Assembly (NCBI GenBank): GCA_038869735.1
Contig: JAWCQO010000005.1
Coordinates: 1-64,000, forward strand
Length of the DNA stretch: 64,000 nucleotides
From: Candidatus Anstonellales archaeon
Lineage (GTDB): Archaea; Micrarchaeota; Micrarchaeia; Anstonellales; CG1-02-47-40
Direction of reading: 5' to 3'
The notes below the pieces were generated by a model. The model was not told the DNA's origin. It ran no database searches and saw only the letters and a program-made list of their open reading frames with translations. Shown here in pieces: positions 1,493-51,885 of the stretch. The number at the start of each line of letters is the position of its first letter. Position 1 is the stretch's first letter. The translations under genes were made by a program, and so were the position numbers.

Positions 1493-2988
<1,496 letters not shown>

Positions 2989-21055: not shown

Positions 21056-21091
21056 AACCGTAAGATTCACAAGAGAGTATGGATATGATAT
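21056..21091 (+). other. 5' arm of the pre-23S processing stem
   Basis: Pairs with 23991-24026 over 36 bases, including a perfect GGATATGATAT block and interrupted pairing further out. It encloses the mature 23S. Confidence 0.75.
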
Positions 21092-23988
21092 GCTGCTTTA
21101 GGCTTGGCAGGGGATAGCTTGGCTTGGGCAATATATCCGCCGTGGCAAGCAGCGAAATGCCCGTGGTAGGCGCAGGCTGCCTGTAATCACGGGGTTGCGG
21201 ATTTACGCGGGGAATTAAAACATTCTAGTACCCGCAGGAAAAGAAAAAAATTTGATTTGGCTAGTAAGGGCGACTGAACGCCAAACAGGGCGACCCGAAT
21301 AGTCCGTCGCGAGGCGGAAAAGATGTGGGACCGCAAAATCTCTCTCTGTGGAGAAGAAACCTCTGGAAAGTGGTGCCATAGAGGGTGAAAGCCCCGTATT
21401 CGAACCGGAGAGAGACGAGGTAAAAAGAGTAGTGTCCATTGGTGATTGGGCACAAATATGGCAGAATCAACTGCCAACCCTAAATATACCCCAAGACCGA
21501 TAGCGTACAAGTAGCGCGAGCGAAAGCTGAAAAGGACCCCGGGAGGGGTGTGAAAAGAGCTTGAAACTGTCAAGCCACAGTTTGATGCGGCCAAAAAGCG
21601 GTTTATGTCCTTCAAAGCAACTGCTGGAGACGGCAGAAGCGAGAAGGAAGTAGCATGGTTGCATCGTCCTTCTATAAGCAAGGGCCAGGGAGTTTTCCTC
21701 AACGGCGAGGCGAAAGCCGGAGCGAAAGCGAGTACTAACGTGCGACAAGTCGTTGGGGAAAGACCCGAAGCCGATGTGAGCTATACGTGGGCAGGGCGAA
21801 GCCGGCCTGACGGCTGGTGAAGGCCCGCAACCAGTACTAGTATATTCTGTTTGGGTGACCTGCGTATAGGGGTGATAGTCCAGTCGAACTCGGCAATAGC
21901 GGGCTCCTCCTGAAGTATATCTCAGTATAGCGGCGCCGGAGCATGTCATACAGGGTAGAGCACTGATTAGGAGGAATGGGCCCGAGAGGGCTCGCCTTCT
22001 TGTCAAACTCCGAATCTGTATGAAGCGTAGATGGTGCTAGTAGGCTTCTCTCGGGTAAGCCGAGAGGACTGTACGGGAACAACCGTTACCGCGGTTAAGG
22101 CCCCCAAATCTTGGCTAAGTGCAACTTAAAAGAGTCTCTGCTCAAAAACAGCTGGGAGGTAGGCTTAGAAGCAGCCATCCTTCAAACAACGCGTAATAGC
22201 GGACCAGCCGAGAGCGCAGATTCTGAAAATGCTCGGGGCTATAAGCCAAGTGCCGATACCGCGGAGTGGCGCATTATGTAGATGCGCGCAATCTGGTAAG
22301 GAGGCGAACCGGTTGGGCAGAAGCGCGGGCGTAAGCTCGCGTGGACCGGCTGGTTATGATAATCCTGGTATTAGTAGCAGCATATCCAGGTGAGAATCCT
22401 GGACGCCGGAAGCACGCGGGTTCCTTGGCGATGCTCGTCAGCCAAGGGTAAGGCGATCCTAAGCGTCGCGCTAATCGCAAAGACGCGAAAGGGAAACCGG
22501 TTAAGATTCCGGTTCCAGACGGATAGGTGCGGTAACGCGAGGGTGTCTTTCTGACGCTTTGGGGTAGGCTCAGTGGAGGAGACTCCATTTAAGCAGGATA
22601 GTTCTCTGGAGTCTAGTTGTTAGGAGAAGGAGAACAAACTGCGAAGGCCACACGGTTGAGCTGACCCCTGGAGCCCGTGAAAAGGAAAGACACAGCGATT
22701 CCGTCTGCTCGTACCTAGAACCAGTACAGGTGGTGCTGGCAGAAAAAGCCAAGGCGTGGCAGGAGAACTCTCGTAAGGGAACTTGGCAAATTAGTGGCGT
22801 AACTTCGGGATAAGCCATGCCTGCGGTTCTCTAAAAAGGAACTGCAGGTCTCAGTGACAAGGGGAGACCGACTGTTTACCAAAAACACAGGTCATCGCTG
22901 AGCCGAAAGGCTGAGTACAATGGCCGATGCCTGCTCACTACTGGTACGTCAAACTCCGGTCCAACGGAGCGAAGCGCCAGCAAAGAGCGGGGGTAACTCT
23001 GACCCTCTTAAGGTAGCGTAATACCTCGCCGCTTAATTGGTGGCTTGCATGAAGGGCATAACGAGTCTCCCACTGTCCCTACGAGGGACCTGGTGAACTT
23101 ACTACTCTGTGAATATGCAGAGGACTTCCAGGGGGAAACGAAGACCCCGTGGAGCTTTACTATAGCCTGTTGTTGGAATGCGGTGATGGTCGCGGAGCGT
23201 AAATGGGAGCCGTTAAGCCGTACCTTTTGGGGTGCGGATAGGCGCCGTTGTAACACCATTCGGCTGTTATTGCATTTCTTACCGGAAGGGACAGCGACAG
23301 GTGGATAGTTTGGCTGGGGCGGTACATCCTCGATAAGGAAACAAGGATGCCCAATGTTCGGCTTAGGTGCGTCAGAAATGCACCGTTAAGGGACAAGGAC
23401 AAATGCCGGACTGACTGTATCCCTAAAAGCATCGGATGCAGAGGCGAAAGCCGGGCCTAACGAACCTTGGTATCCCTTTTGATGAGGGTCCAAGCTGTCA
23501 GACAAGCTACCCCGGGGGTAACAGGCTCGTCGCGGGCGAGAGACGCCTATCTTTAAGTTTTTAAAAAAGAAGGTAGGTGCTCAAATACCCATCGACCCCG
23601 CGGTTTGGTACATCGCTGTCGGCCTAGGTCATCCTGGCGGTGCAGGAGCCGCCAATGGTTGGGTTGTTCATCCATTAAAGACCTACACGAGCTGGGTTCA
23701 GAACGTCGCGAGACAGTTCGGTAGTATCTCCTGGGAGTGCAAATCCGCCTGAGAGGAAGAACCCTTAAGTACGAGAGGAACTTGGGTTCGAAGCCTCTGG
23801 TGTACCGGTTGTGAAAAGCAGATGCCGGGCAGCTACGCTTTATGGGATAAGACCTGAAAGCATCTAAGGTCGAAGCTCATCTCAAAACGAGGCGGTTTGG
23901 CGGTCGTAGCAGACGACTTTGATAGGAGGGAGGTGTAAGAGCCAAGCGCAAGCGAGGCTTTCAGCCTGCCCCTTACTAAAAGCCAGAT
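21092..23988 (+). rRNA. rrl: 23S ribosomal RNA
   Basis: About 2897 nt. Helix 1 can form between GCTGCTTTAG at the 5' end and CTAAAAGCCAG at the 3' end. Universal landmarks are present: GACCCTCTTAAGGTAGCGTAATACC near 23000 (domain IV), the peptidyl-transferase region around 23500-23640, and the sarcin-ricin sequence AGTACGAGAGGAAC at about 23768. No large intron is apparent. The ends are set by pairing and may shift by several bases. No 5S gene follows, and 16S is elsewhere. Confidence 0.95.
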
Positions 23989-23990
23989 GT

Positions 23991-24026
23991 ATATCATATC
24001 CATTCCCTCTTCTGGAGCTTGCGGTT
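23991..24026 (+). other. 3' arm of the pre-23S processing stem
   Basis: Complement of 21056-21091 beginning ATATCATATCCAT; see that entry. Confidence 0.75.
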
Positions 24027-24094: not shown

Positions 24095-24226
24095 CTTGCG
24101 CTATCTAACTTCTAATCTTTGCTTTCTATAGTTGTTGCTGCCTATAGGGTAATAATATTGCCACAATATTGAAAACGAAGGATATAGGCTTCCTTGCGCT
24201 ATCTGCCTCTAATCTTTGCTATCTAA
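24095..24226. repeat. Direct repeat flanking a palindrome
   Basis: CTTGCGCTATCT plus a variable base run and CTAATCTTTGCT occur at about 24095-24126 and again at 24193-24222. Between them is the palindrome AATATTG-CCA-CAATATT (24154-24170) and CCTATAGG. The second copy runs into the stop codon of the large lipoprotein gene. Confidence 0.5.
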
Positions 24227-27200
24227 GTTTCCTCCTCGCATTTTAGCTGTTGATTTGACACAACGTTTGCAAAGACGCATGACTTGGAGATGTCAAGTCC
24301 GGGTTTACATGCTGGAACGTCTCTTCCTCTGTTTCCATATATGATTGGGGTTACGTCTCTCCCTGCTACTTCCATTTTTGCATAGGTATGGTATACCTTT
24401 TCGTCAGGCTGAATCTGCCCGTCGAGATTGCTGTCCTCTTCGCTTGCTATGCAACACCTCATGGATGGAGGAAGTGACGCAAGATACTCAATGTACAGGA
24501 AGGATTCGTCTTGTTCTGTTTCTGGGTTGTTATAAGACATATTCTGAATGGAGGGTGGTTCTTTTACCGTGCCGTCAGTATAAGTACACTTAACAAAATC
24601 TTGAGATTCGTCCCCATCGTAAGACGGATTTGTACAGAGTCTCTCGCTGCATACCTCTCTTCTTGCGCATAGAAGTGGGCATTTATAGCCGTAAGGCCAG
24701 TCATCTCCTGCTGGAATATCACACATAGAGCCATCTGCACAAATATTTGAAACGCCGGCTGTCTGCTCTGACTTTGTTCTTCTTTCACATGTGCACTTCT
24801 GGCTATCTGCAACCAATCTAACATAAGTCGTTTTTGTTGATAAGTCAACGGTGAGCCTTGAGGCGTTTTGAATCACGCAAAATGGCTGCTCCTCTGGAGA
24901 GAGAGTCTCATTAAAACCATAAGGTTGGAGTTCATTTCTTGGCTCATGGATTCCTATAATTCCACTGGAGGATAAGTTTGACGAGAGTTTTATTAGCTCC
25001 TGAATCAGTCGCGCCCTGTCTATATCTTGCCAGCTGTCACACTGAGGAGCCTCTGTTGCCCTTTCTCCAAAGTATATGAGGGATGGTAAGTTGAAATCCA
25101 TAAGAAGCTTTCTTGAAGCGTTTGTCAAGTTTGTTGCCATCAGGAGCGCTTGCTCTTCCGGGGACAGCGCGCAGAACGACGGATTTCCTCCTGAATAATA
25201 AGCCATTTCGGGAATATAGGGCATTATGATTATCAGGTCAAGCTCTTTTAAAAATTCAGTGTCTATCGTACCTGGCGAGGGCGTGTGCACTACTCTTTTG
25301 TAAGTTATCCCGTTAATTGTTTGTACGTTTCCGTCTGCCTGCTCATTTAGGAGCAAGGCATAAGAAATTGCATTAACGTCTTGCATTGGAATAGCCTCGC
25401 CATCTAAAGTCGGTGAAACGCCTCTAAGGGCAGGAATTATGACTGCAGTTAGGGCGTGAGGAAACTTGCGTTTGTAGTATATGACTTTGTTTTTTATGTC
25501 TTCTATCTTAGAGGTGTTTCGCAGAAGGTACTGTTGTCCGTTGTTGTTTAGAATTGTAACCTCTGAGAGGTTAATAGTGTGAAGAGCAAGTATTGTTGTT
25601 CCTTGGTCCTTTAGGTATTTTGCAAGATTTGCTGGAAGAAATGTGTCGAATTTGTTTTGTGGTGAGAGTCTACAGGAGTAATAGGAGTAACATTCTGAAG
25701 GATTGTGTTGCTCGCACCACCCGTTTGATGCACAGGCACTACCGGTCCATTCACATGATGGAGAATCTTCGCATCGAAGCATGGTTTTGTCTTCGCAGTC
25801 GCCTATACAGGAAAAAGAAGTTACATTTGCTAAATACGGAAGCGTGTTTGGAACAACAAGAATTGGAAGAGTGGAGGCTTTTTGATATTTTTGTATTTTT
25901 ACATGGAGGTAGTTTGGGTCTGGCAAAAACGAGGGACCTTGGGCAGTCATTGTTGGATGGGGTGATTGGTTGGGTTGTTCGTCTTGGACATACACTGTCA
26001 CACCCTTTGCGTCTGTGTCGTTGTATGACTTAAAGGGAGAGGGAGGCGCACAGTCATAACAATATCCATTGGAAGCTGTGCATTCCCCATAGCTCTCGCT
26101 TTGAGTAAGGCAAACTGGAGTGTTTTGCTCGGTAGGCGAAATTTGTTGCACTGCACTGGTAGAAAGTGAGCAGGGCTCGCACCCTCCCCAAGAGTAGATG
26201 AGAAGTTGGCCTTCGCGCTCTGGGTCGGAAAGACAGTCTCCAAAAAGGATTTTTCCAGCATCTTGGCCTTCTCCTTGGTGTGGAGTGATAAGCACAAGGG
26301 TTTGGGTTCTTGTTGGTTCCCAGAAAAGTTCATGGGGCCACCAATCTAAACTGCCTCCCTCATGATCAAAGAATTTAAGCTCGAAAATAGTGAATGTGCC
26401 GTATCTTATGTGAAAATCAGTTCCAAGCCTCATGTTGCAGGCGCTAAGAAGTGGTATTCTTTGTTTTATTTCTTGTTCTGTGTAGTGGGAGTTGTACAGG
26501 ACAGTATAGGCACGAGAAGTTTCATTAGAAGTCGTTGTTTTGGACATGTCTATCTCTAGCGGGCCTTCGAGTCTGTTGTTCTCGTACCAGTATCTGCAAT
26601 TATAATGGTTATCGCCTATCTGACCAACTCCTTGTTGATTTTCACCACTGCCTACTGAAATTGAGTGACAGATATACAGCGTATCAGACCACCTATCATT
26701 AGGGAATAGAGTTCTTTCATCTGGAATTGGTGGAATTGCTCTTTCAGGCTGTCCTTCGTATGGGCAGAAGTCTTGATTTCCAAGGCCTTGATAACCTCGG
26801 GAGTCTCCGTCTCTAGAAAATGAATAAGTATTGCCGTCAATTGTAGCAGTACAGCGAAAGGTTTGGGAACTGCCGCTGTTAGAAAAGTTGCCTCCTGTGC
26901 AAACATAACATGCTGAACCGACCGATGTATCTCGCGGATGAATAGTAGCTCTCATAGGAAGTTTTTCGTTAGCAGAAAGAGCGTTTACCTTGCACTTTGT
27001 CTTTCCAAAGCTATCGATGTAGCAGCCGCAGTCAACGGGCGTTCCGTCTTTAAGAATGCATTTGTTGGTTGGGAGTATATTCTTGTTGCAGATGCCAGAG
27101 TAGCACTCCCCGTTTGATTGGCAAAGCGCACTTGCGCCCGGAATTATGTTTAGGATTTTTGAGTTGCGATTATCACACAGTTCTGGCCCTACCTGCTCTT

Positions 27201-28518
27201 CGTTGTCAAGCCTGTTGTTGGAATTTTCATCCAAGTAGCAAACGCAGCCTGGTTCTGGGCAGTAGCCGTTTGCTATTTCAAATTCGTATTGTTCTTTTAT
27301 TTTGGAGATATAATAATCGGTGTCTATTTTTTTTGTAGTCTCTGTTGCGTAAAGCGTGCCATTGGGCCTTGAAATATTTAATTTTTCTTCTGTTGTTACA
27401 TATTGACTTCTTGCTAAGAATGGTAGATATACTCTCTCATCAGCCTGTCCTGTTGGGAGAGAGCATGAACGCTGTGGGTAGCAATTATCCATGCACGCTC
27501 CTTTGCTTGAGTACTGCTTTCCTGTGCTGGCACAAGTCCACTTTATTCTCTTTACTATGGATATGTTAAACTCCTTTGTCCAGTGGCACTCGCCGCCGTC
27601 GCCGTATTTATAGTCCTCGCATGGTGTTCCCCTTAGAAGCTCATCTATGTTTGAATAACAGTTTGCTGTTATAAGTACACCCGAAGGAGAATTTACGGGG
27701 TGGGCTTCGCCCCATTTAGTTGTATACCCGATAAGGTAGCCTTTGAGTGGCCCTGATGCAAACTGCCGCTCAACGTAATTTAGATATCTGTCTTTTTGGT
27801 ATTTGTTATAATCACTAAAGCCGCAGAAGACATCTGAGATGGGAGTATAAAGGCGCGCCTCTTCGAATGTTGAGAAATTGTTTGCGACTCCAAAGCGGAA
27901 TGTGTTTATGAACGCTGTCGGAGACGACTTAAATTCCCTATTTGTCTCTTTGTTGAGTGGCTTGAAAGAACAGAAAGTTCCAAACAGCCCCTCCGGAACA
28001 TCTGTAAAATCAAAAGAAGAAGTAGAGAAGGCGGTTGGGTTTAGGTCTTGTGGTTGGGGTAGTGCTCGGTCTCGTGCATTAAGGTAGTCAGACAAACTCA
28101 TAGATATGCGTGGGTTATAGGAGGTCCTGCCGCAAATCATTGCCGCGCAGTCTGGCGCTATACAGGGGTCAGATGGAATTTGGCCGCAAACGGGGATTTT
28201 GCTGTCTACACCATTGACACAGCCTGGTGGACACCATTGAGGATTTCCATTTGCATCTGCTGGACAGATAGAAGGGTCGCAGTAATATGTGCAGTTTAGC
28301 CTTTCATTTTCGGGACCTAAATCTGATATGCTTGGGCATTCAAGCCTCTGGCTTCCATTGAGGCTTAGAACATCTCTACATTGAAAGCTTGAGGTGTAGT
28401 TACCTGAAGCGCAACAAGAAGTGTATGCGGTTTGAGCAACGCATCCGACAAGAAAAAGGAGAGGGGATATCACTAAAATGAACGAGCCGATTGATGCCGA
28501 AACTGAAATCTTTTTCAT
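24223..28518 (-). CDS. Giant cysteine-rich putative lipoprotein, last gene of the membrane-protein operon
   Basis: 1431 residues. The N-terminus has a signal sequence with a lipobox-like LVGC (Cys at about residue 26), suggesting a lipid anchor on the outer face. Most of the protein is exterior, with dozens of cysteines in small disulfide-type modules (for example CCASGNYTSSFQC, YCDPSICPADANG and CERRTKSEQT). A region at about 960-1230 has few cysteines and alternating strands and helices (ILALHTINLS, LDLIIIMPYIPEM, SSSGIIGIHEP), which looks like an alpha/beta, perhaps TIM-barrel hydrolase-like, domain. There is no C-terminal membrane helix. It starts 4 bases after the preceding gene. It could be the cell-surface adhesin or pilus-tip element of the system. 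No family is recognised. Confidence 0.75.
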   Translation of the reverse strand: MKKISVSASIGSFILVISPLLFLVGCVAQTAYTSCCASGNYTSSFQCRDVLSLNGSQRLECPSISDLGPENERLNCTYYCDPSICPADANGNPQWCPPGCVNGVDSKIPVCGQIPSDPCIAPDCAAMICGRTSYNPRISMSLSDYLNARDRALPQPQDLNPTAFSTSSFDFTDVPEGLFGTFCSFKPLNKETNREFKSSPTAFINTFRFGVANNFSTFEEARLYTPISDVFCGFSDYNKYQKDRYLNYVERQFASGPLKGYLIGYTTKWGEAHPVNSPSGVLITANCYSNIDELLRGTPCEDYKYGDGGECHWTKEFNISIVKRIKWTCASTGKQYSSKGACMDNCYPQRSCSLPTGQADERVYLPFLARSQYVTTEEKLNISRPNGTLYATETTKKIDTDYYISKIKEQYEFEIANGYCPEPGCVCYLDENSNNRLDNEEQVGPELCDNRNSKILNIIPGASALCQSNGECYSGICNKNILPTNKCILKDGTPVDCGCYIDSFGKTKCKVNALSANEKLPMRATIHPRDTSVGSACYVCTGGNFSNSGSSQTFRCTATIDGNTYSFSRDGDSRGYQGLGNQDFCPYEGQPERAIPPIPDERTLFPNDRWSDTLYICHSISVGSGENQQGVGQIGDNHYNCRYWYENNRLEGPLEIDMSKTTTSNETSRAYTVLYNSHYTEQEIKQRIPLLSACNMRLGTDFHIRYGTFTIFELKFFDHEGGSLDWWPHELFWEPTRTQTLVLITPHQGEGQDAGKILFGDCLSDPEREGQLLIYSWGGCEPCSLSTSAVQQISPTEQNTPVCLTQSESYGECTASNGYCYDCAPPSPFKSYNDTDAKGVTVYVQDEQPNQSPHPTMTAQGPSFLPDPNYLHVKIQKYQKASTLPILVVPNTLPYLANVTSFSCIGDCEDKTMLRCEDSPSCEWTGSACASNGWCEQHNPSECYSYYSCRLSPQNKFDTFLPANLAKYLKDQGTTILALHTINLSEVTILNNNGQQYLLRNTSKIEDIKNKVIYYKRKFPHALTAVIIPALRGVSPTLDGEAIPMQDVNAISYALLLNEQADGNVQTINGITYKRVVHTPSPGTIDTEFLKELDLIIIMPYIPEMAYYSGGNPSFCALSPEEQALLMATNLTNASRKLLMDFNLPSLIYFGERATEAPQCDSWQDIDRARLIQELIKLSSNLSSSGIIGIHEPRNELQPYGFNETLSPEEQPFCVIQNASRLTVDLSTKTTYVRLVADSQKCTCERRTKSEQTAGVSNICADGSMCDIPAGDDWPYGYKCPLLCARREVCSERLCTNPSYDGDESQDFVKCTYTDGTVKEPPSIQNMSYNNPETEQDESFLYIEYLASLPPSMRCCIASEEDSNLDGQIQPDEKVYHTYAKMEVAGRDVTPIIYGNRGRDVPACKPGLDISKSCVFANVVSNQQLKCEEET

Positions 28519-28522
28519 GTAC

Positions 28523-29563
28523 TCATATCACCTTTGATATAGCTGAAGTAAGTTCTCCTAATTCCCCTCCAAGGAGTGGTGTTATTATGCGCACAAAAAT
28601 AAGAGTTAGAGCAAAAGCAATAAATGGATAGTACATTATACCGATGGTAAGGGTTGCAAGCTCTGATGAGAAGAGTTCAAATGTACTTCTGCTTATGTCA
28701 ACGTTCTGGGTTATTGTTGAAAGTGTAACTGATGCGCCAGAAAAACCGGCATAGCATGCATTGAACACCTCTGTTTTTGGAGTGACGTCTATATCGCCGG
28801 ATCCGTGAGCATATGCTGGATCCATAACGACATAGAATGCAGGGAGTATAAAATAAAAGCCCATCGCAACGGCTATAAGAAGGCCTCCGGCCCCTCTTGT
28901 AAATTGAAATATTCGAAGGAGGATGCCAAGAGGAAGAAAAACTGACAGCATATTCTTCTCTATATAATCGAGGAAGATGTATTGCGCGTGTAGATGGATA
29001 AGGAGTGGAGTTATTTTTGAGCCAAGAAGATGGGCGCGCTCAACATCTCCACGCAAGAACCAGTCACCGCAGTAAACCTGAATGCCTACAAAGCTCAAAC
29101 AAAATGCAGCTTGCTTTTCGGTTTCTTTGTTTTGTTCAAAAATTCTCTGATACATTTTGTCAAGAAAGTTTATTTTTTCCTGTATTCTGCACTTTGCAAA
29201 GGATATTGGGTTTCCGATTATAAGTCCGTTTTGGTCGATTGAAAATGTTATCGGCTGTCCTCCACACTCTATTGCGGTATCTTGGCCTATTATTATTGCA
29301 ATGGTGATAAATGCGGCTAGGTTGACAAGATTTATAAGCATGACTATGAGGATTGATGATGCAGATGCCTGAAGCATCTCTGAAATGGCCCAGCGCTTTA
29401 TATTTTCAAGAGATAATGACCTTCCAATGACGTATACTATTGTAAAGAAGAAAATGCATAGTGCTACTGCTGAAAGCGCAACGGCATTCCACCCAAGGCC
29501 TTCCCAGACGGAGATGAGGCCTGTGGTTGAGCCATAAGATTGGAGGATGTATGCGGGCTCCAT
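28523..29563 (-). CDS. Polytopic membrane protein, VirB6/TrbL-like, paralogue 5
   Basis: 346 residues; the minimal member of the set, without a cleavable signal or cysteine-rich exterior domain. Core elements: first membrane segment AVALCIFFFTIVYVIG, the polar turn KRWAISEMLQASASS, a second segment, and the shared signature LGILLRIFQFTRGAGGLLIA followed by an aromatic segment ending in Pro (GFYFILPAFYVV). The last segment is followed by GGELGELTSAISKVI, equivalent to the GGxxxxxxxxRLI ends of the paralogues. Its ATG touches the TGA of paralogue 4. It is probably the bare channel-type core of the family. Confidence 0.8.
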   Translation of the reverse strand: MEPAYILQSYGSTTGLISVWEGLGWNAVALSAVALCIFFFTIVYVIGRSLSLENIKRWAISEMLQASASSILIVMLINLVNLAAFITIAIIIGQDTAIECGGQPITFSIDQNGLIIGNPISFAKCRIQEKINFLDKMYQRIFEQNKETEKQAAFCLSFVGIQVYCGDWFLRGDVERAHLLGSKITPLLIHLHAQYIFLDYIEKNMLSVFLPLGILLRIFQFTRGAGGLLIAVAMGFYFILPAFYVVMDPAYAHGSGDIDVTPKTEVFNACYAGFSGASVTLSTITQNVDISRSTFELFSSELATLTIGIMYYPFIAFALTLIFVRIITPLLGGELGELTSAISKVI

Positions 29564-30574
29564 TCATATCAACCTCGATAATCTTCCTGCATCAACCTCT
29601 TGTCCTAACAATCCTGAAACCTGCGATATAGCCGCAACAACAACAATAAGATTGATGGAAGTTATAAAGACTGAACCAAAGAATATTAGAGTTGCATTTT
29701 TTATAAGGAAGATAACGTCTGTACCTTCTTGGATTGTAGAGGAGTAAATCGCTGGAAAGAAAAGGCCCTCCAACATCAAGAGGAACGGAAAGAAGATGTA
29801 AAGCGCGACTCCAAGGCCTATCAGGGAACCTCCAAACATGCGCATAAATGGTATGCTGCGAAGTATGATACCCCAAACAAGGCAGAAGATGAGAAAGGAG
29901 TTAGTATAATCGGTGCCTACAAGAAGAATGTTATAGACGCCTATCTGCGCAAGGATGGTAGCAAGGGATATTAGAGACGAGTTCATAAACAAAGTGAGAA
30001 CTGCGTTGTGTGCCTGCACTCCGGATTCTGGATTTAAAGAAACTCCAGAACCCCCAAGGATGCAGAGGGTTTTGCAGTTCCATAGTGTGAGAGTCAATTT
30101 CCTTTCATTTAGGCCTATAATTTCGCGTAGATTATAAAACGTAGAATAGGAGATTGTTTGCATATAGACTAAAAACTTTTTTGCTGCAGTGTAGACGTTG
30201 TCTGACTCCTGAAAATCTACATTGGCTTGAGATTCAATAGGTATCTGCGGAAGGTTGGTGAGCGTTACTGCGCTTCCTACCTCAATAGAGCAGAAGAGCG
30301 TCAAAATTTGGAGTATTAGTGCAATTATAATGGCAGTGCTGATAAGTTGCATAACTTCATCTTTTGACCAGGCCACTAGCCGAGGATAGCTGAGAAACTC
30401 TCCAGCAGCATATGTTATTGCTATCAGTCCTGCAAGTGCCGCAAATCCCGCGGTTGCGTAAGAGATTGCAGGCGAAAATAGATTTTGTGGCTGCTCACAT
30501 ATCGCTTGTTGGGAAAATGCAAACCCTCCGAGGGCAAGAACAAAAAATAATAGTGTGTTGTTTGTTCTTATCAT
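29564..30574 (-). CDS. Polytopic membrane protein, VirB6/TrbL-like, paralogue 4
   Basis: 336 residues from ATG 30574, which overlaps the stop of paralogue 3 as ATGA. A signal-like N-terminus (NNTLLFFVLALGGFAFS) precedes the core: TAGFAALAGLIAITYAAGEF, the turn VAWSKDEVMQLISTA, a second segment, a helical exterior loop with one short cysteine pair (WNCKTLCILG), the signature WGIILRSIPFMRMFGGSLIG with FFPFLLML, and a last segment ending GQEVDAGRLSRLI. There is no cysteine-rich exterior domain. The function is inferred only from the family. Confidence 0.8.
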   Translation of the reverse strand: MIRTNNTLLFFVLALGGFAFSQQAICEQPQNLFSPAISYATAGFAALAGLIAITYAAGEFLSYPRLVAWSKDEVMQLISTAIIIALILQILTLFCSIEVGSAVTLTNLPQIPIESQANVDFQESDNVYTAAKKFLVYMQTISYSTFYNLREIIGLNERKLTLTLWNCKTLCILGGSGVSLNPESGVQAHNAVLTLFMNSSLISLATILAQIGVYNILLVGTDYTNSFLIFCLVWGIILRSIPFMRMFGGSLIGLGVALYIFFPFLLMLEGLFFPAIYSSTIQEGTDVIFLIKNATLIFFGSVFITSINLIVVVAAISQVSGLLGQEVDAGRLSRLI

Positions 30575-31851
30575 TGCGACAACCTCACAAGGGTCGATAT
30601 GTCTATTTGAGAGCCAAACATTGCTGCAAGCCACTGGATAAACAGAAGCGTTATTGTTAGGTTCAGCGCAGTCGCAAATATGGAGCGCAGATATACTTGA
30701 AAGATGAGTGGTTCAAAGTTGTAAATGCTTTTGTTATCGCCTATTTCTGTTTGGCCGATTAATGGTTCGATGAATTTTTCGCGTGTGCTTGCGTAGGAAA
30801 AATCAAATGGGTCGCATGTTTGAGTGCGAATCGTATTTGCAAGATTAGAATTTTGGTTGCTTCTGTAAGCTTGCAAGTACTCATTAGAGTCTAAAATTTC
30901 TCCAAAAAGAATTTTTTCTGAAAAAAGGAAAGTAAGCGGCAGGACAAGGTATAGCCCAGCTGCAAATGCTATTAACGTTCCACCTACTTTTCGCGTGAAG
31001 TTGAAAGTGCGAAGGAAGATTCCTATAGGAAGCAGGATAGAGAAAGCATAATTCTTTGCAAAGCTCATGATAAGGAAAATTGCCTGAAAATCTGTAACAG
31101 CAAGAGACAATGATGTTGTCGCATGGGTGATGGAAGGGCGCATTGCATTTATGGCGGAACATGTGATTATTGAATACCCAACACCTAATATTGAGCAATA
31201 GCCGGATTTTGAGCCTTCTTGTCCCGATTTCTTTGAAATTTCAAGATAGTTTGAGAGTAGGTCTTCGTAATTGCTCTTTACATCTTCAAGGGTTGCAAAC
31301 GCGTAGTCATAAAATGTCCCCTCTACTTCTGCCCCACCAGCTAAAGACTTAAATGCTGGGAGGAGAGAGGCGTCTAGATAATAAGCCATGCTAGTAAGAG
31401 AAGCTAGAATCAGTGCTGTAAAGATAAGTTGGGTCAGCTCATCTTTAGTATAGGTTTTTAGTTCAGTTATATTGAAGACGGAGCTACCCATATAAAGTAG
31501 CGATATTAATGAAGCGGAGATAAGAAAAGCTATGAGTACTAGAGGAAGCCATTGTGACTGGCAACGGCAGTTAGAGCATGAGGCAGTTAAAGGACATCCG
31601 CCTCTTAGTTCTACTGCAGAAACTTCGCACTCCTCGCCTTGGTCAAGAACTCCGTTTCCACAGATTGGAAGCTGAACGTTGACGTTTTCTGCAATACATT
31701 CGCCGTTTTGGCAGATATAACCTTCTTGACATGGAGGGGAGCAGAGTGCAGCGTTTCCTCCTTCTCCAGCGGAGAAAAGAACAGCTGAGGCTAGGATAAT
31801 GAAAAAGAGCTCAAGTATCAACGCCTTTTGTTGCTTCATTTTGCTCCACAT
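30571..31851 (-). CDS. Polytopic membrane protein with one disulfide repeat, paralogue 3
   Basis: 426 residues from ATG 31851 (TGATG overlap with paralogue 2; a GTG 3 bases earlier is possible). A signal peptide is followed by a small cysteine-rich module (CSPPCQEGYICQNGEC) and one myxo-type disulfide repeat (CGNGVLDQGEECE). The core follows: WLPLVLIAFLISASLISLLY, the turn TYTKDELTQLIFTA, a helical exterior region, LPIGIFLRTFNFTRKVGGTL with LVLPLTFLF, and a C-terminal segment ending GSQIDISTLVRLSQ. It overlaps paralogue 4 by ATGA. Confidence 0.82.
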   Translation of the reverse strand: MWSKMKQQKALILELFFIILASAVLFSAGEGGNAALCSPPCQEGYICQNGECIAENVNVQLPICGNGVLDQGEECEVSAVELRGGCPLTASCSNCRCQSQWLPLVLIAFLISASLISLLYMGSSVFNITELKTYTKDELTQLIFTALILASLTSMAYYLDASLLPAFKSLAGGAEVEGTFYDYAFATLEDVKSNYEDLLSNYLEISKKSGQEGSKSGYCSILGVGYSIITCSAINAMRPSITHATTSLSLAVTDFQAIFLIMSFAKNYAFSILLPIGIFLRTFNFTRKVGGTLIAFAAGLYLVLPLTFLFSEKILFGEILDSNEYLQAYRSNQNSNLANTIRTQTCDPFDFSYASTREKFIEPLIGQTEIGDNKSIYNFEPLIFQVYLRSIFATALNLTITLLFIQWLAAMFGSQIDISTLVRLSQ

Positions 31852-34151
31852 CACAAAAATCTTGATATTCCCGGAAGTTCTATATCTCCTCCGAATGTTT
31901 GGGAAAAAACTCTAATGAATGCTATCAAGACAACTATATTAAAGAGTGGAAGAACGTAAGCAGGAATTGCAAGCACACCTACATTTTTTGTGTCACTCAT
32001 GGTTGTTTTTGCTCCTGTCTGGCTGGATATAAAGCCTGCAGGGGTAAAATCGCGTGAAGCGGCGGTTGGGAGATTGCAAACTTCTGCACAATTTGTCCGT
32101 ATTGGGGGTATTGTGGTGCAGTCATCATCACATTTGAGGCACGAAGTGCAAAGTGATGGCGGTGAGTCTGTTGTGAAATTGCTTTTGCATTCCTTGTTGC
32201 AATATGGTTCAAGGCAACTTGCGGGACAGTTTATGTCTCCAGCGTCTGCAACTCTGCACCTTTTTGGGCATGCAGAACATGTTCCGTCGGGTTGTGGTTG
32301 TATTGAGCCGTAGTTTTGACGAGTTGGAAAGTTTGCACAGTTTTGAGAGGGAGAGGGGATCTGAATTCCACAATAAGCTCGACAGGCAACACAGGAAGGG
32401 TTGGTCCTACAATGTAATTGGAAGTAGTTGTCAGCGTCCTCATTGTCTTGGATGTTGGCGATGCGGCATTCGCGCTGGCAGCTTCCGCAAAGGGTAAGGC
32501 AGTCAAGTAGTTTTGGGTCTGGAATCCCTATCCTGCAGTTTGGTTCGTTTTCGCTTCTTCCCATTGGGCAATGTTCTTCTGTACATTCCTCGCATGCTTT
32601 CCAGACAGATTCTCCGTTTTCCTGCACTGGAAAGTCTGATGGCTTTGGAATTCTCCAATAGCCATCGACGGGGTCGTTTGGGTCATCATCTGACTTATCA
32701 TCCGGATAAAGTGGATTGAAGTAATAAACACGACAAAAGTCTGGGCATAGTGTGCACTTGCCTTGGCATTCTGGCGACATATAACTGACTGAATTTATTA
32801 TTGCACATCCAGATATATAGCAGCCATCTTGAGAATCTTCTATTCTATTTGCTCTGGAGCAAGTATTTTCACCAAATAACTGTTTGATTTCCTCCGGGGG
32901 GTCGGGTTTTTCGTCATCAGAAAAACATGTTGTCCTCTCGCGATAAGGGACATATGCTTGGTTGTCTGAATTCAGCTTACTTTTTCCTCCAACCTTACAC
33001 TCGTCCGGGCAAGTGGAGCAAACGGCCCGTACATCAACGTCCTTAACTATTTGACCTGCGTGTTCAGAGTCTTCTGCTATGAGATCTGATTTGGTGCAAG
33101 AAGGATTTTGGATAGGATAGGGAATTTCTCTACATATGGAGGGACATGAGAGGATTACGGTTTGGCCAGTTATAGTCTCACCTTCTTGATTTACAACCAT
33201 TTGATTTGTCAGTTGTCTCTTGCAACTTCCAAGCTCTTCGCAAGTGTTTATTTTCGGTGGGTTGAAAGTGCATTCTCCAGGACAATAATCTGGAGGTGGG
33301 GAGACCATCTGGTCTCCAAACACTGCAACTTTTAGAGTAAACCAAGAAAAGACGTAGAGCATTGGCCAGACTAAAAGCAGGGATATTCCGATTGCAAGTA
33401 AAAGCCCTCCTAATCTGCGCGAAAAGAAAAATGTGCGGAGGATAACTCCATAAAAAATGAGCACAGATGAAAGAGATGCTGACTGCGGGTTATTTGTTGA
33501 AGCCAGATTGGATAGAAAGCTTTTTTGGGTGGCAAGCGAAGAGTATATCCCTGAGAGAACATCGAAGTTGTATGAATATCTTTCTGTGTACATGGAATAG
33601 CCGGCATTTTTTCCTGAATAATAAGCGGCCCAGAGTGTGTAGTACGTGTTGGTAGACACTCCTTCTCGCTCAGAGGATTTTTTTGCATTTTCAAACGCAT
33701 CTATGAGATTTGATTTTAGCGTTGAGTTTGTAATTGAAAGAAGCGAATCTAAGTAGCACAAACCAAGCGAGATTACATACGGCTGATTCTGGATGGGTTG
33801 GCAGGCAAATTGGCCTGCTGTTATTGATAGTAGAAACGAAGAAAGGAACGAGAAAATAGCGATAAGAGAGATTATTATCAGAGCTGAAGCAAAGACTTGT
33901 GAGAGTTCTGTATTTGCCCAGACTTTTATTTCTGGGATGTTTAGCCCTATCCCAACAATATATGCAATAGAAACGATGGATAAGGAGATGGCCAGCGCGA
34001 TTATTGATGCCGATTGCCAATTTCCATTTCCAAGAAATTGATTATATGTAAGATCTATGGGGGATAGCTGTAGGAGTGGCTGTGGGTACGAGAAAGTAGA
34101 GAATAGCAAAAGAACGAGGAGGATCTGCGTCTTTTTTAATTTTGTATTCAT
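31851..34151 (-). CDS. Polytopic membrane protein with an inserted cysteine-rich domain, paralogue 2
   Basis: 766 residues. The N-terminal half has the core at once: signal, QSASIIALAISLSIVSIAYI, the turn KVWANTELSQVFASA, a helical loop, and FYGVILRTFFFSRRLGGLLL with VWPMLYVF. An exterior insertion of about 400 residues follows (about 280-700), made of repeats around CxxCPxxCRV: CSTCPDECKV, CTLCPDFCRV, CGSCQRECRI, CVACRAYCGI, CSACPKRCRV. A last membrane segment (VLAIPAYVLPLFNIVVLIAF) and GGDIELPGISRFL close the protein. Here the cysteine domain sits between core segments rather than before them. The start abuts the paralogue 1 stop. Confidence 0.82.
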   Translation of the reverse strand: MNTKLKKTQILLVLLLFSTFSYPQPLLQLSPIDLTYNQFLGNGNWQSASIIALAISLSIVSIAYIVGIGLNIPEIKVWANTELSQVFASALIIISLIAIFSFLSSFLLSITAGQFACQPIQNQPYVISLGLCYLDSLLSITNSTLKSNLIDAFENAKKSSEREGVSTNTYYTLWAAYYSGKNAGYSMYTERYSYNFDVLSGIYSSLATQKSFLSNLASTNNPQSASLSSVLIFYGVILRTFFFSRRLGGLLLAIGISLLLVWPMLYVFSWFTLKVAVFGDQMVSPPPDYCPGECTFNPPKINTCEELGSCKRQLTNQMVVNQEGETITGQTVILSCPSICREIPYPIQNPSCTKSDLIAEDSEHAGQIVKDVDVRAVCSTCPDECKVGGKSKLNSDNQAYVPYRERTTCFSDDEKPDPPEEIKQLFGENTCSRANRIEDSQDGCYISGCAIINSVSYMSPECQGKCTLCPDFCRVYYFNPLYPDDKSDDDPNDPVDGYWRIPKPSDFPVQENGESVWKACEECTEEHCPMGRSENEPNCRIGIPDPKLLDCLTLCGSCQRECRIANIQDNEDADNYFQLHCRTNPSCVACRAYCGIQIPSPSQNCANFPTRQNYGSIQPQPDGTCSACPKRCRVADAGDINCPASCLEPYCNKECKSNFTTDSPPSLCTSCLKCDDDCTTIPPIRTNCAEVCNLPTAASRDFTPAGFISSQTGAKTTMSDTKNVGVLAIPAYVLPLFNIVVLIAFIRVFSQTFGGDIELPGISRFL

Positions 34152-36656
34152 TTACATCCCTATTTCAGAAACCTTACGGATTGCGGATGCAAACCCATGC
34201 ACTGAGGTTATTATTATAATTATCGCGAGATTCGGAAGAAAAACGGCTTGTGGGAGAAGCAAGGCGAGCGTTTTAAAGGAAACGTGTGGGTCTGCAGCAA
34301 TATAAAATGAATCAAGAACTTGGCTTGTTAGAGGATATGTGTTTGCGAAGAGGGTATAGATTGCTGGAAATATTAAGTAAAGTGAAAAGCAGAGTGCCAT
34401 AAGATAGTTTCCTGCGGTCCTGGTTGGTGGAAGGACTCTTAGAAAAATTGCAAAGGATAGGAAGAGTACTATTATTGGTTGGTTTTCTTGAGGGGTGGAA
34501 ATGAAAAGAAGCCTAAATAGTTCTAACTGGAGTTTTATGCTGACTATCATTGGTATGAGCAGGTCTATCATCACTTCCTGGGATTGTGAATACGCTCTCC
34601 TGATTGCGTCTTTTGATTCTCCTTTGCCACCTTTAAATGGAATGCCAACAAAGAGATAGTTTGTTGCTTTGAGTTGATTAGTAAGACTACCTTCAGTTAG
34701 ACGTTGAACTTCTGCCGTTCCGATTCTTTGAAGAGAGTCAAGGTATTTTGTTGAGTAAACGTACATCGTTGTACCTTCCGGGACATTTAAAAATGAGCCT
34801 ATGACGGCGTTTGAGTTTTCAAGAAAGTTTGTTGCTAGAATCAAAACGGCAAAAATAGCTGACCAACCAAGATGCACTGCTTCGTCTCTTAGCAATATGT
34901 CAAGATGTACATTGCCTCCGAAATATTTTGAGTACATAAATGCAAGGGCTATGAGCAGGACGATTAAAAAAAATGCAGAGTGCACCAGTGCAGCGATGTT
35001 GCCTGAGCTAGGGCAGTCCTGTTGACAATAGACAGGTTCTGCTCCTTCACATCTGCCGTTTCCACATTCAAATGATGTTTGGATGCACCTGCAAGAATAG
35101 GGGTCGCAACTAAACTTTTCACTACAGTTGTTTTCTATTCCAGGATCGCACTCTTCGCCTTGGTCAAGAACTCCGTTTCCACAAAGCATTTGAGGAGGCT
35201 GTTTAGTTATTAAAACCTCCTTGCTTTCTTGCGCTGAGATTATGCTATCTGAATAGATAATCGACGCTTTAAACACCAGTGTTTTTCCTTCTGAGCAGGA
35301 CTCATAGAGTGGGCATACTATTGACCTTGTTAGTTGTTGGTCTGCCTGTACTTGTGTAGAGCCACTTAACAGCACTTCGGATGAAGATTCTGAACGGATT
35401 ACCCACTCCCACTCAAGACTTTGGGGGCTAACACCTTCTGGAGACGGAATGGTGATCCGTAATGATGGTGATTGTGACTCTGTGGCGGGGTTTGGCGTAA
35501 TGTCAGAAAGAATTGGAGGGGGATGTTCTGGCACTAATTCATCTATAGTAGCTTCGTCAAATGTTTCATTGGAGGTGTAGCGTTCTCCTTGGCCATAAGA
35601 AAGAGTTGCATAAAACCTAAGAGTTGAACGATCAGGGCAACCGTTATCCAGATTGAAGCAGTAGTAGGTTTGATATGAGTAATTTGTTGTTCCTCTTCTG
35701 TAGGCCTGTGTTCCTTGATGAATGGTTACACTCATTCCGTCCGGTTGCGTTAATTCGAAGCGCCAGTTTATAGTGTTGGGCTCAATGATGTTTTCAGGTA
35801 TTGTGACGATTCCGTTAAAAACGTCTCGGGGATTCGCACGTTTTGGTTTAATTGAAACTGATGGTGGGAGGATAGGTTCATAGTATGCATCGTCAGATTG
35901 AGAGTAATCAGTGCAAGCATAAACAGAGCATGCCCTTACACGAACATGAACGTTTCTTGGTGATGAGGCTGAGCACCCTGGATAGTCTGAGCATCTAAAA
36001 GACATTGCTGATTGGCCCTCCATCCATGGAGTTTCAAAGTCTGGTCCGTCTCCAAGATAGGCAACCCACTTAAATTGATAGATAAAGTTACTTGCGTCTC
36101 CCTGTCCGGCAGTGACAAGTTGACATGAGGAGCGGCCGGATATTTGGTTGCAATAATTTCTATTTGCGACAGTGGCTGAATCTATTCCTGAAGTGTATCC
36201 TCTGCATCGAATGTTCCACGGAGGTCCACTTTCGCCTTCAAGCCCTTCATCTGGGACACAAGAGTTTGAGTTTACATCCCAGTGACAACCGGCGGGTTGC
36301 TCTTGAAGAAAATAAGGAGCGTTATAATCGCTATATTGGGCACTCAAAGAATTACAATTATTTTGGTTTAGGATACTGCATCTTGCTTGTGAATTTTGAG
36401 CTCCCTGAGCAAGCTGGCATAATCTGCTGGCAAAATAACTCCCTGCTCGGCAGCCTCCGCTCCAGTCATTGCTTATGCTAACTGTTGTTGAATACGAAGG
36501 AATTGAAATTAGTGTGAGCTCTGGTTTTTCTGGAATGCCGGACACAACATTACCGCCTGCACCCTCGTCATCATCACCGATTATGCAATTTTGTGACATA
36601 AGAAATTGAGCAGCAAATACTAGAAAGAGCAGGATGAAACTATAGGGGCTTTTCAT
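34152..36656 (-). CDS. Polytopic membrane protein with Ig-like and disulfide domains, paralogue 1
   Basis: 834 residues. The signal peptide is at 1-21. The exterior part (about 22-540) begins with a cysteine-containing region, then two or three beta-sandwich, Ig-like segments (PPSVSIKPKRANPRDVFNG and PPILSDITPNPATESQSPSL), then two disulfide modules (CGNGVLDQGEECDPG and CGNGRCEGAEPVYC). The core follows: FFLIVLLIALAFMY, LLRDEAVHLGWSAI, a helical loop, AIFLRVLPPTRTAGNYLMAL with LIFPAIYTLF, and a last segment ending SAIRKVSEIGM, the most divergent end in the set. Its ATG directly follows the TAA of the first gene. Confidence 0.82.
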   Translation of the reverse strand: MKSPYSFILLFLVFAAQFLMSQNCIIGDDDEGAGGNVVSGIPEKPELTLISIPSYSTTVSISNDWSGGCRAGSYFASRLCQLAQGAQNSQARCSILNQNNCNSLSAQYSDYNAPYFLQEQPAGCHWDVNSNSCVPDEGLEGESGPPWNIRCRGYTSGIDSATVANRNYCNQISGRSSCQLVTAGQGDASNFIYQFKWVAYLGDGPDFETPWMEGQSAMSFRCSDYPGCSASSPRNVHVRVRACSVYACTDYSQSDDAYYEPILPPSVSIKPKRANPRDVFNGIVTIPENIIEPNTINWRFELTQPDGMSVTIHQGTQAYRRGTTNYSYQTYYCFNLDNGCPDRSTLRFYATLSYGQGERYTSNETFDEATIDELVPEHPPPILSDITPNPATESQSPSLRITIPSPEGVSPQSLEWEWVIRSESSSEVLLSGSTQVQADQQLTRSIVCPLYESCSEGKTLVFKASIIYSDSIISAQESKEVLITKQPPQMLCGNGVLDQGEECDPGIENNCSEKFSCDPYSCRCIQTSFECGNGRCEGAEPVYCQQDCPSSGNIAALVHSAFFLIVLLIALAFMYSKYFGGNVHLDILLRDEAVHLGWSAIFAVLILATNFLENSNAVIGSFLNVPEGTTMYVYSTKYLDSLQRIGTAEVQRLTEGSLTNQLKATNYLFVGIPFKGGKGESKDAIRRAYSQSQEVMIDLLIPMIVSIKLQLELFRLLFISTPQENQPIIVLFLSFAIFLRVLPPTRTAGNYLMALCFSLYLIFPAIYTLFANTYPLTSQVLDSFYIAADPHVSFKTLALLLPQAVFLPNLAIIIIITSVHGFASAIRKVSEIGM

Positions 36657-38699
36657 TTATATCAACCTATAAAGACCAATTATTCTGGTATCGCCTCCAA
36701 GAACTTCTGATGTGCCTTTGGTCATTACGACCGTTATAAAAACTGTTAAGAGGATGGATATTAGCGCATTTGTGTAAAAGCCAGATATTAGATGTAGAAC
36801 TGATTCAAGAGGGGAGTAATAGTCTGAAATGAGCTCTGATTGAGATATTGCTGCATAGTTATAGAGTGCTGGCCCAAATGGAAGCGGGAATCCCTGCACA
36901 ATTGCAAGGTAAGTTAGCTTTACTATGTTCGCACATGAAAAGAAGCCGCCTGCAGTGGCAGGATTTGACAGAAGAATACTACATATGAGCCACTCATAGA
37001 AGTCTTCTCCGGGTAAAACGAACAGCGCAAATGTAGATGAACACACTAAACTTTGTGCTGGTGGACTACCGGGATCAAAATCAGTTGCATTTTTTATTGA
37101 GTTTAGGTCTAAGTTTGTTTGTGTATAGGCCCATGAGGCAAAAACGATACTGGCAGGAAACCAAAGATATGCTCCAATACACACAGCAATAAGGGTAGTA
37201 CCTACCCTTCTTGTTAATGGAAATGTTCTTAGGGCAAACGCAGCTGGTAGAAGAAGTGTTGGGATTGTTGATGAGAAAAAGTAAAGAAGCATTTTTTGTA
37301 TTGAAAAGGCATATATTATTTTTGATAAATTATCCAAAGCTTGGAGGATGCTTGAGGTTAGGATAGATAGTCCAGCTGATGGAGAACGGGATATAAATTT
37401 ATTTGAGTAAAACGGAATAAGTGGAGTGCTTAATGAATAAGAAAAACTTGAAATCTTTGAAATGTAAAAGTTTACTTCAGCCAGATAGTTTATTGAATTT
37501 CTCGAATTCTGGATAAAGTAATCAATGTGAGAAATCGCAGCTGAAGTCATATCTGGAGAACCCGTAATCGCACTTGCAAATGTCTCTATTCCAGCTATAG
37601 CAATAATGGTGGCAATTATTAATGCTGCACTTGCAAAAACCTCTCTAAATTCTGATTTTGACCAAACGTGGAGTTGGATTGAGTTGGTAAATTCTGCAAG
37701 CATATAGGCAATGGCTGAAATTACGACGGCTGCAAAAAGACCTATTAGGATTATTGGTGAAATAGCGATTTGGACTGCATTGCCAAATAGGCGCGGGGCT
37801 GAAACGCACTGGCAACTTTCACAAATAAAGGCGTCTGCACATTGGTTGGTGTATTCACACTGTTCGTTTTCTTCGTCAATTATTCCGTTTCCACAATAAG
37901 GTGGGTTTGCTCTAGCCACTTCATTTACTGACACACAAGAACAGGAGAAGCATCTCTGACCGACTTGGCAGTCTGCATCTGAATCGCACTCTTCGCCTTG
38001 GTCAAGAACTCCGTTTCCACAGCTGGATGTGAAAGTATAGGGATTGAAATCTCTAATTGATTCACATGTGCAATTTTGAGAGCATGTGTAGCCTGGAGCA
38101 CAATTGTTTGTGTTTATGTCGCATTCCTCTCCAGCATCTAAAAATCCATCACCGCACTGTGGTCCAAAAGCTATCTGTTCGGCTGTTGGGCTGCATTGGT
38201 TATTTAGGCAGGAATATCCTGCTTTACAATCAGCATTTGTTAGGCATGATGTTTTGCATGTGCAAGATTGCGAGCAGACGTATGCGCCACAGTTGAGGTT
38301 TTGTTCTTTGTCGCATTCCTCTCCAGCATCTAAAAATCCATCACCGCATACTGGAAGGGAAGATACGCACTGGCAACTTAGAGGATCGCAGAGTTGTCCG
38401 CTTTTGCAGATTATTTTAGAATCAGCCGGGTCACACTGTTCCCGTCCCGTAATTTTTCCGTCGCCGCATACTGAGTTATCCTGTACGCACTGGCATCCGG
38501 GGTTACAGTAAAAGCCGAATGGGCAATCGCTGTGAATTTCGCATTGCTCTTGTGGTTGCTCGACTATTCCGTTTCCGCATATGTGAGCAGGGGGGCTACT
38601 TTGAGCAAAGAAAACTCCGCTTGAAAGGAGAAGAGTGAAAAATAGTATGGCGAATATGGAGCGCTTGTCAAAAATCACAAAGCCAAGCATCATAAACAC
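36657..38699 (-). CDS. Polytopic membrane protein with six disulfide repeats, first gene of the operon
   Basis: 680 residues (ATG 38690 is an attractive alternative start). After the signal peptide come six CGxGxxxxxExC repeats beginning at residues 41, 78, 118, 182, 227 and 269, of the type called Myxococcus cysteine-rich repeat. The core starts at about 312: ISPIILIGLFAAVVISAIAY, the turn HVWSKSEFREVFASAA, a helical exterior loop, then ALRTFPLTRRVGTTLIAV (489-506) with LWFPASIVF, a second exterior loop with three cysteines, and a last segment ending GGDTRIIGLYRLI. It is transcribed divergently from dus. All six genes of this operon are joined by gaps of -4 to +4 bases. Confidence 0.82.
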   Translation of the reverse strand: MFMMLGFVIFDKRSIFAILFFTLLLSSGVFFAQSSPPAHICGNGIVEQPQEQCEIHSDCPFGFYCNPGCQCVQDNSVCGDGKITGREQCDPADSKIICKSGQLCDPLSCQCVSSLPVCGDGFLDAGEECDKEQNLNCGAYVCSQSCTCKTSCLTNADCKAGYSCLNNQCSPTAEQIAFGPQCGDGFLDAGEECDINTNNCAPGYTCSQNCTCESIRDFNPYTFTSSCGNGVLDQGEECDSDADCQVGQRCFSCSCVSVNEVARANPPYCGNGIIDEENEQCEYTNQCADAFICESCQCVSAPRLFGNAVQIAISPIILIGLFAAVVISAIAYMLAEFTNSIQLHVWSKSEFREVFASAALIIATIIAIAGIETFASAITGSPDMTSAAISHIDYFIQNSRNSINYLAEVNFYISKISSFSYSLSTPLIPFYSNKFISRSPSAGLSILTSSILQALDNLSKIIYAFSIQKMLLYFFSSTIPTLLLPAAFALRTFPLTRRVGTTLIAVCIGAYLWFPASIVFASWAYTQTNLDLNSIKNATDFDPGSPPAQSLVCSSTFALFVLPGEDFYEWLICSILLSNPATAGGFFSCANIVKLTYLAIVQGFPLPFGPALYNYAAISQSELISDYYSPLESVLHLISGFYTNALISILLTVFITVVMTKGTSEVLGGDTRIIGLYRLI

Positions 38700-39725: not shown

Positions 39726-40307
39726 TTATTTTGAAGGTGGCTTTGAGGCATAGTTTTTTAATACTCTGGTAAGGTGTAACAATGTTTTTCTTACGTCATT
39801 TTCGGACTGACAGCCAGTGCAGATTATCTTGCCGTTTTTAAAAAGAAGGAGAGAGGATTTTGGATTTTTGAATTTTAGGATTGCGCCTGGGAATTGCTCG
39901 GGTTCGTATTCTACGTCCTCTACTTCCGCAGCTATTGAATAAAGGTCAAGGTAAACGCCAAGTGATGCTGAAGCAACGATATTTTCTATCTTGAATTTTG
40001 GTTTTGCGTGTGTTTGTGGAGTTGTTTTTGCGTATGGTTTTAAAAGGTTCATTGTTCTGTTGACTGTTGTTTGGACTTGGGATTCTGACTGACAGCCCGT
40101 GCAGATTATCTTGCCGTTTTTAAAAAGAAGGAGAGAGGATTTTGGTTCTTTTAGCTTCAGGATTGCGCCTGGGAATTGCTCGGGTTCGTATTCTACTCCA
40201 GGTATTTTAAATGCTATAGAATAGAGGTCAAGCTCTATGTTGAGGTTTGCGCTTGCGACAATGTTTTCTATCTTGAATTTTGGTTTTGGTATTCTTATTC
40301 CACTCAT
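39726..40307 (-). CDS. tbp: TATA-box-binding protein with nearly identical halves
   Basis: 193 residues. The TBP saddle consists of two repeats, residues about 9-92 and 103-186. In ordinary TBPs the halves are clearly diverged. Here both contain KPKFKIENIVASA, LDLYSIA, VEYEPEQFPGAILK and a long shared PKSSLLLFKNGKIICTGCQS block, and the DNA is identical over 47 bases (39817-39863 and 40099-40145). The usual phenylalanine/valine DNA contacts appear modified to L and I (SSLLLF). The C-terminal acidic tail of many archaeal TBPs is absent. It recruits TFB and RNA polymerase to the TATA boxes noted throughout the window. Confidence 0.95.
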   Translation of the reverse strand: MSGIRIPKPKFKIENIVASANLNIELDLYSIAFKIPGVEYEPEQFPGAILKLKEPKSSLLLFKNGKIICTGCQSESQVQTTVNRTMNLLKPYAKTTPQTHAKPKFKIENIVASASLGVYLDLYSIAAEVEDVEYEPEQFPGAILKFKNPKSSLLLFKNGKIICTGCQSENDVRKTLLHLTRVLKNYASKPPSK

Positions 40308-51875: not shown

Positions 51876-51885
51876 ATTAAGCAAC

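Follow-up and report, generated by a model that had tools for sequence, protein, structure and literature searches.

A fixed-order array of six paralogous membrane proteins points to a cell-contact apparatus previously undescribed in Micrarchaeota

The Micrarchaeota are tiny archaea believed to rely in large part on other microbes. Within 64,000 nucleotides from a member of this phylum (Candidatus Anstonellales archaeon, assembly GCA_038869735.1, contig JAWCQO010000005.1, positions 1 to 64,000; hereafter the window), which belong to an 884-kb genome, a minus-strand operon at 24223-38699 encodes six paralogous membrane proteins and a giant lipoprotein of 1431 amino acids (aa). The six are probably versions of one membrane-channel protein of a DNA- or protein-transfer machine, kept in a fixed order, and they point to a cell-contact apparatus previously undescribed in Micrarchaeota. 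Our literature search, which covered open-licence papers only, turned up no account of such a system in this phylum.

The operon and its relatives

A first reading of this DNA, made without database searches (the sequence-only reading), had described a tightly spaced, single-stranded operon with the same limits, and the open reading frames (ORFs) agree with it. That reading had counted six genes, five paralogues and then a giant lipoprotein; the lipoprotein stands, and the genes in fact number seven, with six paralogues. The junctions between them measure 0, 0, -4, -4, 0 and +4 bases, with the fifth gene taken from the ATG at 30574.

36657-38699, minus strand: array gene 1, 680 aa, with a signal sequence, a cysteine-rich N-terminal exterior (40 cysteines, DUF4215-like) and a VirB6-like five-segment core
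37758-38699, minus strand: cysteine repeats of the gene 1 N-terminal exterior, residues ~1-314
34152-36656, minus strand: array gene 2, 834 aa, with an N-terminal exterior of ~556 aa and the core after it
31851-34151, minus strand: array gene 3, 766 aa, with a cysteine-rich exterior insert that splits the core between membrane segments 4 and 5
31994-33344, minus strand: the gene 3 insert, 44 cysteines in an exterior loop (limits approximate, from the ends of profile matches)
30571-31854, minus strand: array gene 4, 427 aa, core and one cysteine repeat
29564-30574, minus strand: array gene 5, 336 aa from the ATG at 30574, core only (the ORF opens at 30634)
28523-29563, minus strand: array gene 6, 346 aa, core; the array position nearest to single-core genes, with weak support
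24223-28518, minus strand: giant cysteine-rich lipoprotein, 1431 aa, 73 cysteines, with a lipobox, directly after the array

The shared core proposed from the sequence was borne out, with the E, LR, TR, GG, LIA and FP columns conserved across the paralogues and a single core profile matching all six (E values of 1e-43 to 1e-93). The last product had been described as a cysteine-rich putative lipoprotein, and here too the description holds, given its lipobox, LVGC, and the relatives of the protein, nearly all of which have kept the lipobox.

The core consists of five hydrophobic segments, with the N-terminus outside and the C-terminus inside. Across 220 proteins, lysine and arginine make up 30% of the loop between segments 3 and 4 versus ~5% of the exterior parts, and cysteine makes up 1.5-4% of the outside parts versus 0.03-0.6% of the cytoplasmic loops; it is because of this distribution of positive charge and cysteine that we place the N-terminus and loops 2-3 and 4-5 outside. 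The arrangement agrees with the five-transmembrane-segment (5TMS) model of VirB6, which has the same N-out/C-in orientation. All large elaborations of the core are located in its exterior parts, either in the N-terminal region or in loop 4-5.

Our whole-genome searches for the core were made within the window's phylum, together with one scan of named genomes whose strict patterns reach close relatives only. With gene 6 as the query, 58 of 59 nearby genomes yielded members of the core family, ~12 copies in most, and a profile search found the family in 258 of the 295 genomes of the phylum Micrarchaeota; the named relatives that carry it are Candidatus Micrarchaeota. Given this spread, the core family is not a product of chance.

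In the window's order (Anstonellales), the genes form arrays of six in a fixed sequence of positions, usually two arrays per genome, as a survey of 12 genomes (20 regions, each 20 kb at most) showed, a few of the arrays being incomplete from assembly or gene calling. Array A, to which the window array belongs, has cysteine-rich exteriors and the giant lipoprotein gene after it in 12 of the 12 A loci fetched, whereas array B, which in the window's genome (G000) lies on contig C4 (L021, 10139-16771), is plainer and has no lipoprotein. Position 3 carries a large cysteine-rich loop 4-5 in nearly every A array and in no B array (in one genome, G012, a gene was missed in calling and the position numbering is shifted). 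The N-terminal exterior domains vary from genome to genome, and none of the nine other A arrays in the comparison had the long cysteine repeats of gene 1 at position 1; these were seen in the window's genome alone.

A tree of 90 sequences from 15 complete arrays (IQ-TREE) recovered positions 1, 2, 3, 5 and 6 as clades with ultrafast bootstrap (UFBoot) values of 98-99, and inside all six positions the A members and the B members form separate clades (UFBoot 97-100). Taken together, the position 4 sequences do not form one clade in the IQ-TREE consensus; FastTree recovered all six positions. Because the positions are clades with A and B subclades inside each, the trees indicate that the six kinds arose first and that the whole array was duplicated later, before the sampled families split. 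In families f12 and f13, positions 2 and 5 pair with the corresponding positions and the remaining ones pair among themselves. The single-core genes, which occur outside such arrays, form one group in the tree, their placement and the rooting of the six positions being weakly supported.

A further giant protein family, of up to 1867 aa with two membrane segments and no Pfam match, adjoins both arrays in several relatives (L024, L026, L030, L029, L037, L039 and others).

ATPase, partner and pilin genes

Elsewhere in the window lies an ATPase gene with two companions.

50385-51884, minus strand: CedB/VirB4-like ATPase, assigned by phylogeny to the single-core system and not to the arrays
51886-52662, minus strand: 258-aa partner protein, two membrane segments at the N-terminus; in single-core operons, as in the arrays of other families, its homologues sit between the core gene and the ATPase
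49679-50395, minus strand: 238-aa coiled-coil/winged-helix-like protein that accompanies the ATPase

The ATPase is CedB/VirB4/HerA-like. Its best NCBIfam model is CedB, at 8.8e-25 and far under the equivalog cut-off, and on this sequence resemblance we call it CedB-like rather than CedB. VirB4-type NCBIfam models score above most HerA models, HHalign matched the protein to R388 VirB4 at 95% over 270 columns, and a search of plasmids returned mostly TraC. The sequence-only reading had paired this ATPase with the array, a pairing that did not survive the phylogeny: in the tree it falls in the single-core system that is linked to pilins. The ATPases of the arrays in families f12, f13 and f17 cluster with a second copy in the window's genome (G000:C1:130860-132410), which is the array-type copy.

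It is in those same three families that the array itself has ATPase and pilin neighbours. There, on the same strand, the array is followed by two copies of the 258-aa type of partner, the ATPase, the coiled-coil protein and a two-segment protein of ~800 aa, and VirB2-like pilin genes lie upstream of the array. Compact operons in families f21, f12, f4, f7 and f8 combine one core gene with the partner and the ATPase, many of them with a pilin gene, and the gene order pilin, core, partner, ATPase recurs in single-core operons of several families. The pilins matched TrbC/VirB2 or T4SS_pilin at 1e-5 to 2e-4, just under the Pfam curated cut-offs, and R388 VirB2 by HHalign at 44%; relatives of them are present in 39 of 39 nearby genomes. 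The window's genome has six scattered VirB2-like pilin genes, two of them in tandem (C2:169, C2:696, C2:58638, C2:103421, C11:4297 and C5:78622), and its thirteenth, single core gene (L140) has one of the six beside it, whereas its arrays do not.

The core and a strong ATPase match (E at most 1e-60) co-occur in 237 of 258 core-positive genomes versus 5 of 37 core-negative ones and, among good genomes, in 88 of 88 versus 1 of 8; the table was counted by hand and the genomes are related, so p-values are only indicative. With the distribution given above, the array is thus neither missing from related genomes nor parted from the ATPase, the two outcomes that the sequence-only reading had named as jointly telling against it.

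We also considered the 258-aa partner as a VirB3-VirB4N piece, an assignment that is unproven: HHalign comparisons with R388 VirB3 and with the VirB4 N-terminal domain gave noise, and the PDB profile matches of the partner are mostly coiled coils. A protein of ~650-860 aa with no known family (L135:4015-6567 and relatives) stands beside array-type ATPases and in f21 single-core operons. On contig C6 of the window's genome, a protein of at least 3271 aa (L147:1-9816, extending past the contig start) has an exterior of beta-helix and Ig-like parts, a single membrane segment around residue 2874 and a HerA/TrwB-like ATPase tail, and resembles the SPEARE giant proteins of Nanohaloarchaeota.

Two further observations concern the window at large. 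Its 16S rRNA (1493-2987, minus strand) and 23S rRNA (21083-23999, plus strand), identified as archaeal, are unlinked and on opposite strands, and a 193-aa protein at 39726-40307 has two nearly identical halves and, judged by eye from its sequence, resembles TATA-binding protein.

A VirB6-like channel and the alternatives to it

Because no sequence or profile match exists, homology of the core to VirB6 rests on fold and context. Scans of the core against Pfam, NCBIfam and PHROGs returned no match, nor did a PDB profile search with the core or a plasmid search with a single-core protein. An AlphaFold model of a single-core protein (predicted local distance difference test, pLDDT, 87; predicted template modelling score, pTM, 0.81) retrieved R388 VirB6 as the sole entries at Z of at least 8, which were also the top three by VIA (7o3v, Z 9.1, 227/260; 8rt9, Z 9.1, 236/272; 8rtd, Z 8.4), with the structural alignment spanning ~87-90% of R388 VirB6. 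With the model of gene 6, VirB6 took Foldseek rank 1 at an E value of 0.8. TTYH channels, which took the first Foldseek place with the better model, did so at an E value of 0.5, which is not significant. For a helical protein, this match of fold to VirB6 is suggestive, and the best reading is that the core would work like VirB6/CedA, membership of the family being unproven. The VirB6/TrbL-like channel with variable outer domains that the sequence-only reading had proposed finds support in topology, fold, pilin and ATPase context and conserved synteny, but none in a TrbL/VirB6 sequence or profile match.

We think it likely that the operon encodes the channel module of a Ced/Ted-like apparatus that is chromosomal and derived from type IV secretion, and that its VirB6-like channel protein has diversified into six subunits that are no longer interchangeable. 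The six would most likely join in one mixed ring or stalk base, with the cysteine-rich exterior domains and the giant lipoprotein as the putative cell-surface contact part. The array-type VirB4/CedB-like ATPase and its two-segment partner would energise the channel from inside, and the VirB2-like pilins would build a pilus or tube that meets it from outside. The cargo, in whichever direction, would probably be DNA or protein moved between the Micrarchaeon and the contacted cell. More tentative, and to our minds somewhat doubtful, is a stricter proposal, in which six different VirB6-like subunits, each with its own place, would make up an obligate ring that the cell has in two parallel versions and that serves as the Micrarchaeota cell-contact organelle.

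Several results weigh against this channel module. The TrbL/VirB6 profile PF04610 had no match in the window's genome and is not among the families listed for 71 core members; HHalign of the core against ten plasmid VirB6 proteins gave noise, at the level of reversed VirB6 decoys (small alignments), as did HHalign against polytopic neighbours, with positive controls inside the family at 99.8-100%. A Z of ~9 is within reach of unrelated helical bundles by chance, and Foldseek with the single-core model gave no significant match. The six-gene arrays in the window's order adjoin neither ATPase nor pilin, and the joint assembly of the six paralogues is something that we infer. Relaxase PF03432 was silent in 29 genomes of relatives (other relaxase families were not searched), and a coupling protein was not found, the giant fused ATPase aside.

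The lack of a sequence link to VirB6 also suits the idea that the core does no more than anchor surface adhesin domains in the membrane, with no relation to type IV secretion systems (T4SS) and with incidental ATPase and pilin neighbours; outer domains do dominate several A-array proteins and differ between genomes. Nevertheless, the B-array and single-core proteins are conserved though they lack large outer domains, pilin and ATPase linkage is repeated in several families, and the genomes show co-occurrence, all of which makes a mere anchor improbable. We regard it as unlikely, if less so, that the paralogues assemble separately into homo-oligomeric VirB6-like channels, one kind per gene, as pores that differ in their outer heads but can replace one another and that the ATPase engages in turn. 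For this idea speak the homopentamer of R388 VirB6 (PMC9259494) and the single-core systems, in which one gene suffices; however, the retention of six separate lineages, in the same fixed order in arrays A and B, suggests a joint need for all six, and in the window's order arrays with fewer genes were met only with apparently incomplete assembly or gene calling. We think it very improbable indeed that the array belongs to an integrated conjugative element: the parts are conjugation-like and Mia14 islands have been suggested as conjugative (PMC5498576), but the array is phylum-wide with a position-wise vertical pattern, and the absence of a PF03432 relaxase from the 29 genomes of relatives suits a domesticated Ced/Ted-like exchange system better.

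Comparison with known systems

R388 VirB6/TrwI, the best structural match and one of nearly full length, is likewise polytopic and forms the base of pilus and channel, as a pentamer beneath a five-start pilus (PMC9259494). In contrast to the array, it is the product of a single gene, and its sequence similarity to the core is undetectable. The SPEARE proteins of Nanohaloarchaeota are giant surface proteins with a VirB4/TraG-like ATPase in a DPANN archaeon (PMC10266531), with the look-alike on contig C6 in the window's genome, but each is one fused protein rather than a channel array.

The Ced and Ted systems of Thermoproteota (CedA/TedA, CedA1/TedC, CedB/TedB) share with the Micrarchaeota genes a VirB2-like pilin beside a polytopic VirB6-like gene and a VirB4/CedB-like ATPase (PMC9905601, PMC11868833), and are also chromosomal and without relaxase. 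In Ted, channel gene and pilin gene are neighbours and the ATPase gene is close by (PMC9905601), and Saccharolobus has a second, five-segment CedA paralogue, CedE (PMC11868833). The Micrarchaeota, a different archaeal phylum, depart from these systems in having six (twice six) channel paralogues, cysteine-rich exteriors, a giant lipoprotein and a separate two-segment partner, and in a core for which no sequence match to VirB6 was found.

The sequence-only reading knew of no described system with five such paralogues in a row, but the Rickettsiales, with five tandem extended VirB6 genes, rvhB6a-e, provide a precedent (PMC2653234, which also names the 5TMS model of VirB6). In both cases host-dependent microbes carry diverged paralogues whose flanking domains are large and variable. 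The Rickettsiales genes number five, belong to a reduced vir system with VirB8, VirB9 and VirB10, and encode proteins that match TrbL (PF04610), whereas the Micrarchaeota have six genes, a duplicated array and a core that does not match TrbL; VirB8, VirB9 and VirB10 did not turn up among the neighbours scanned with Pfam, no search having been aimed at them. How DPANN archaea exchange material with their hosts is an open question, for which the array, widespread in Micrarchaeota, offers a concrete candidate at the level of genes, with partners that can be tested. Since six lineages have kept a fixed order, a channel of non-identical subunits becomes an idea open to direct test. If our reading is true, the array would parallel, by an independent route, the five VirB6 genes of the Rickettsiales, host-dependent microbes of both domains having multiplied the same channel subunit.

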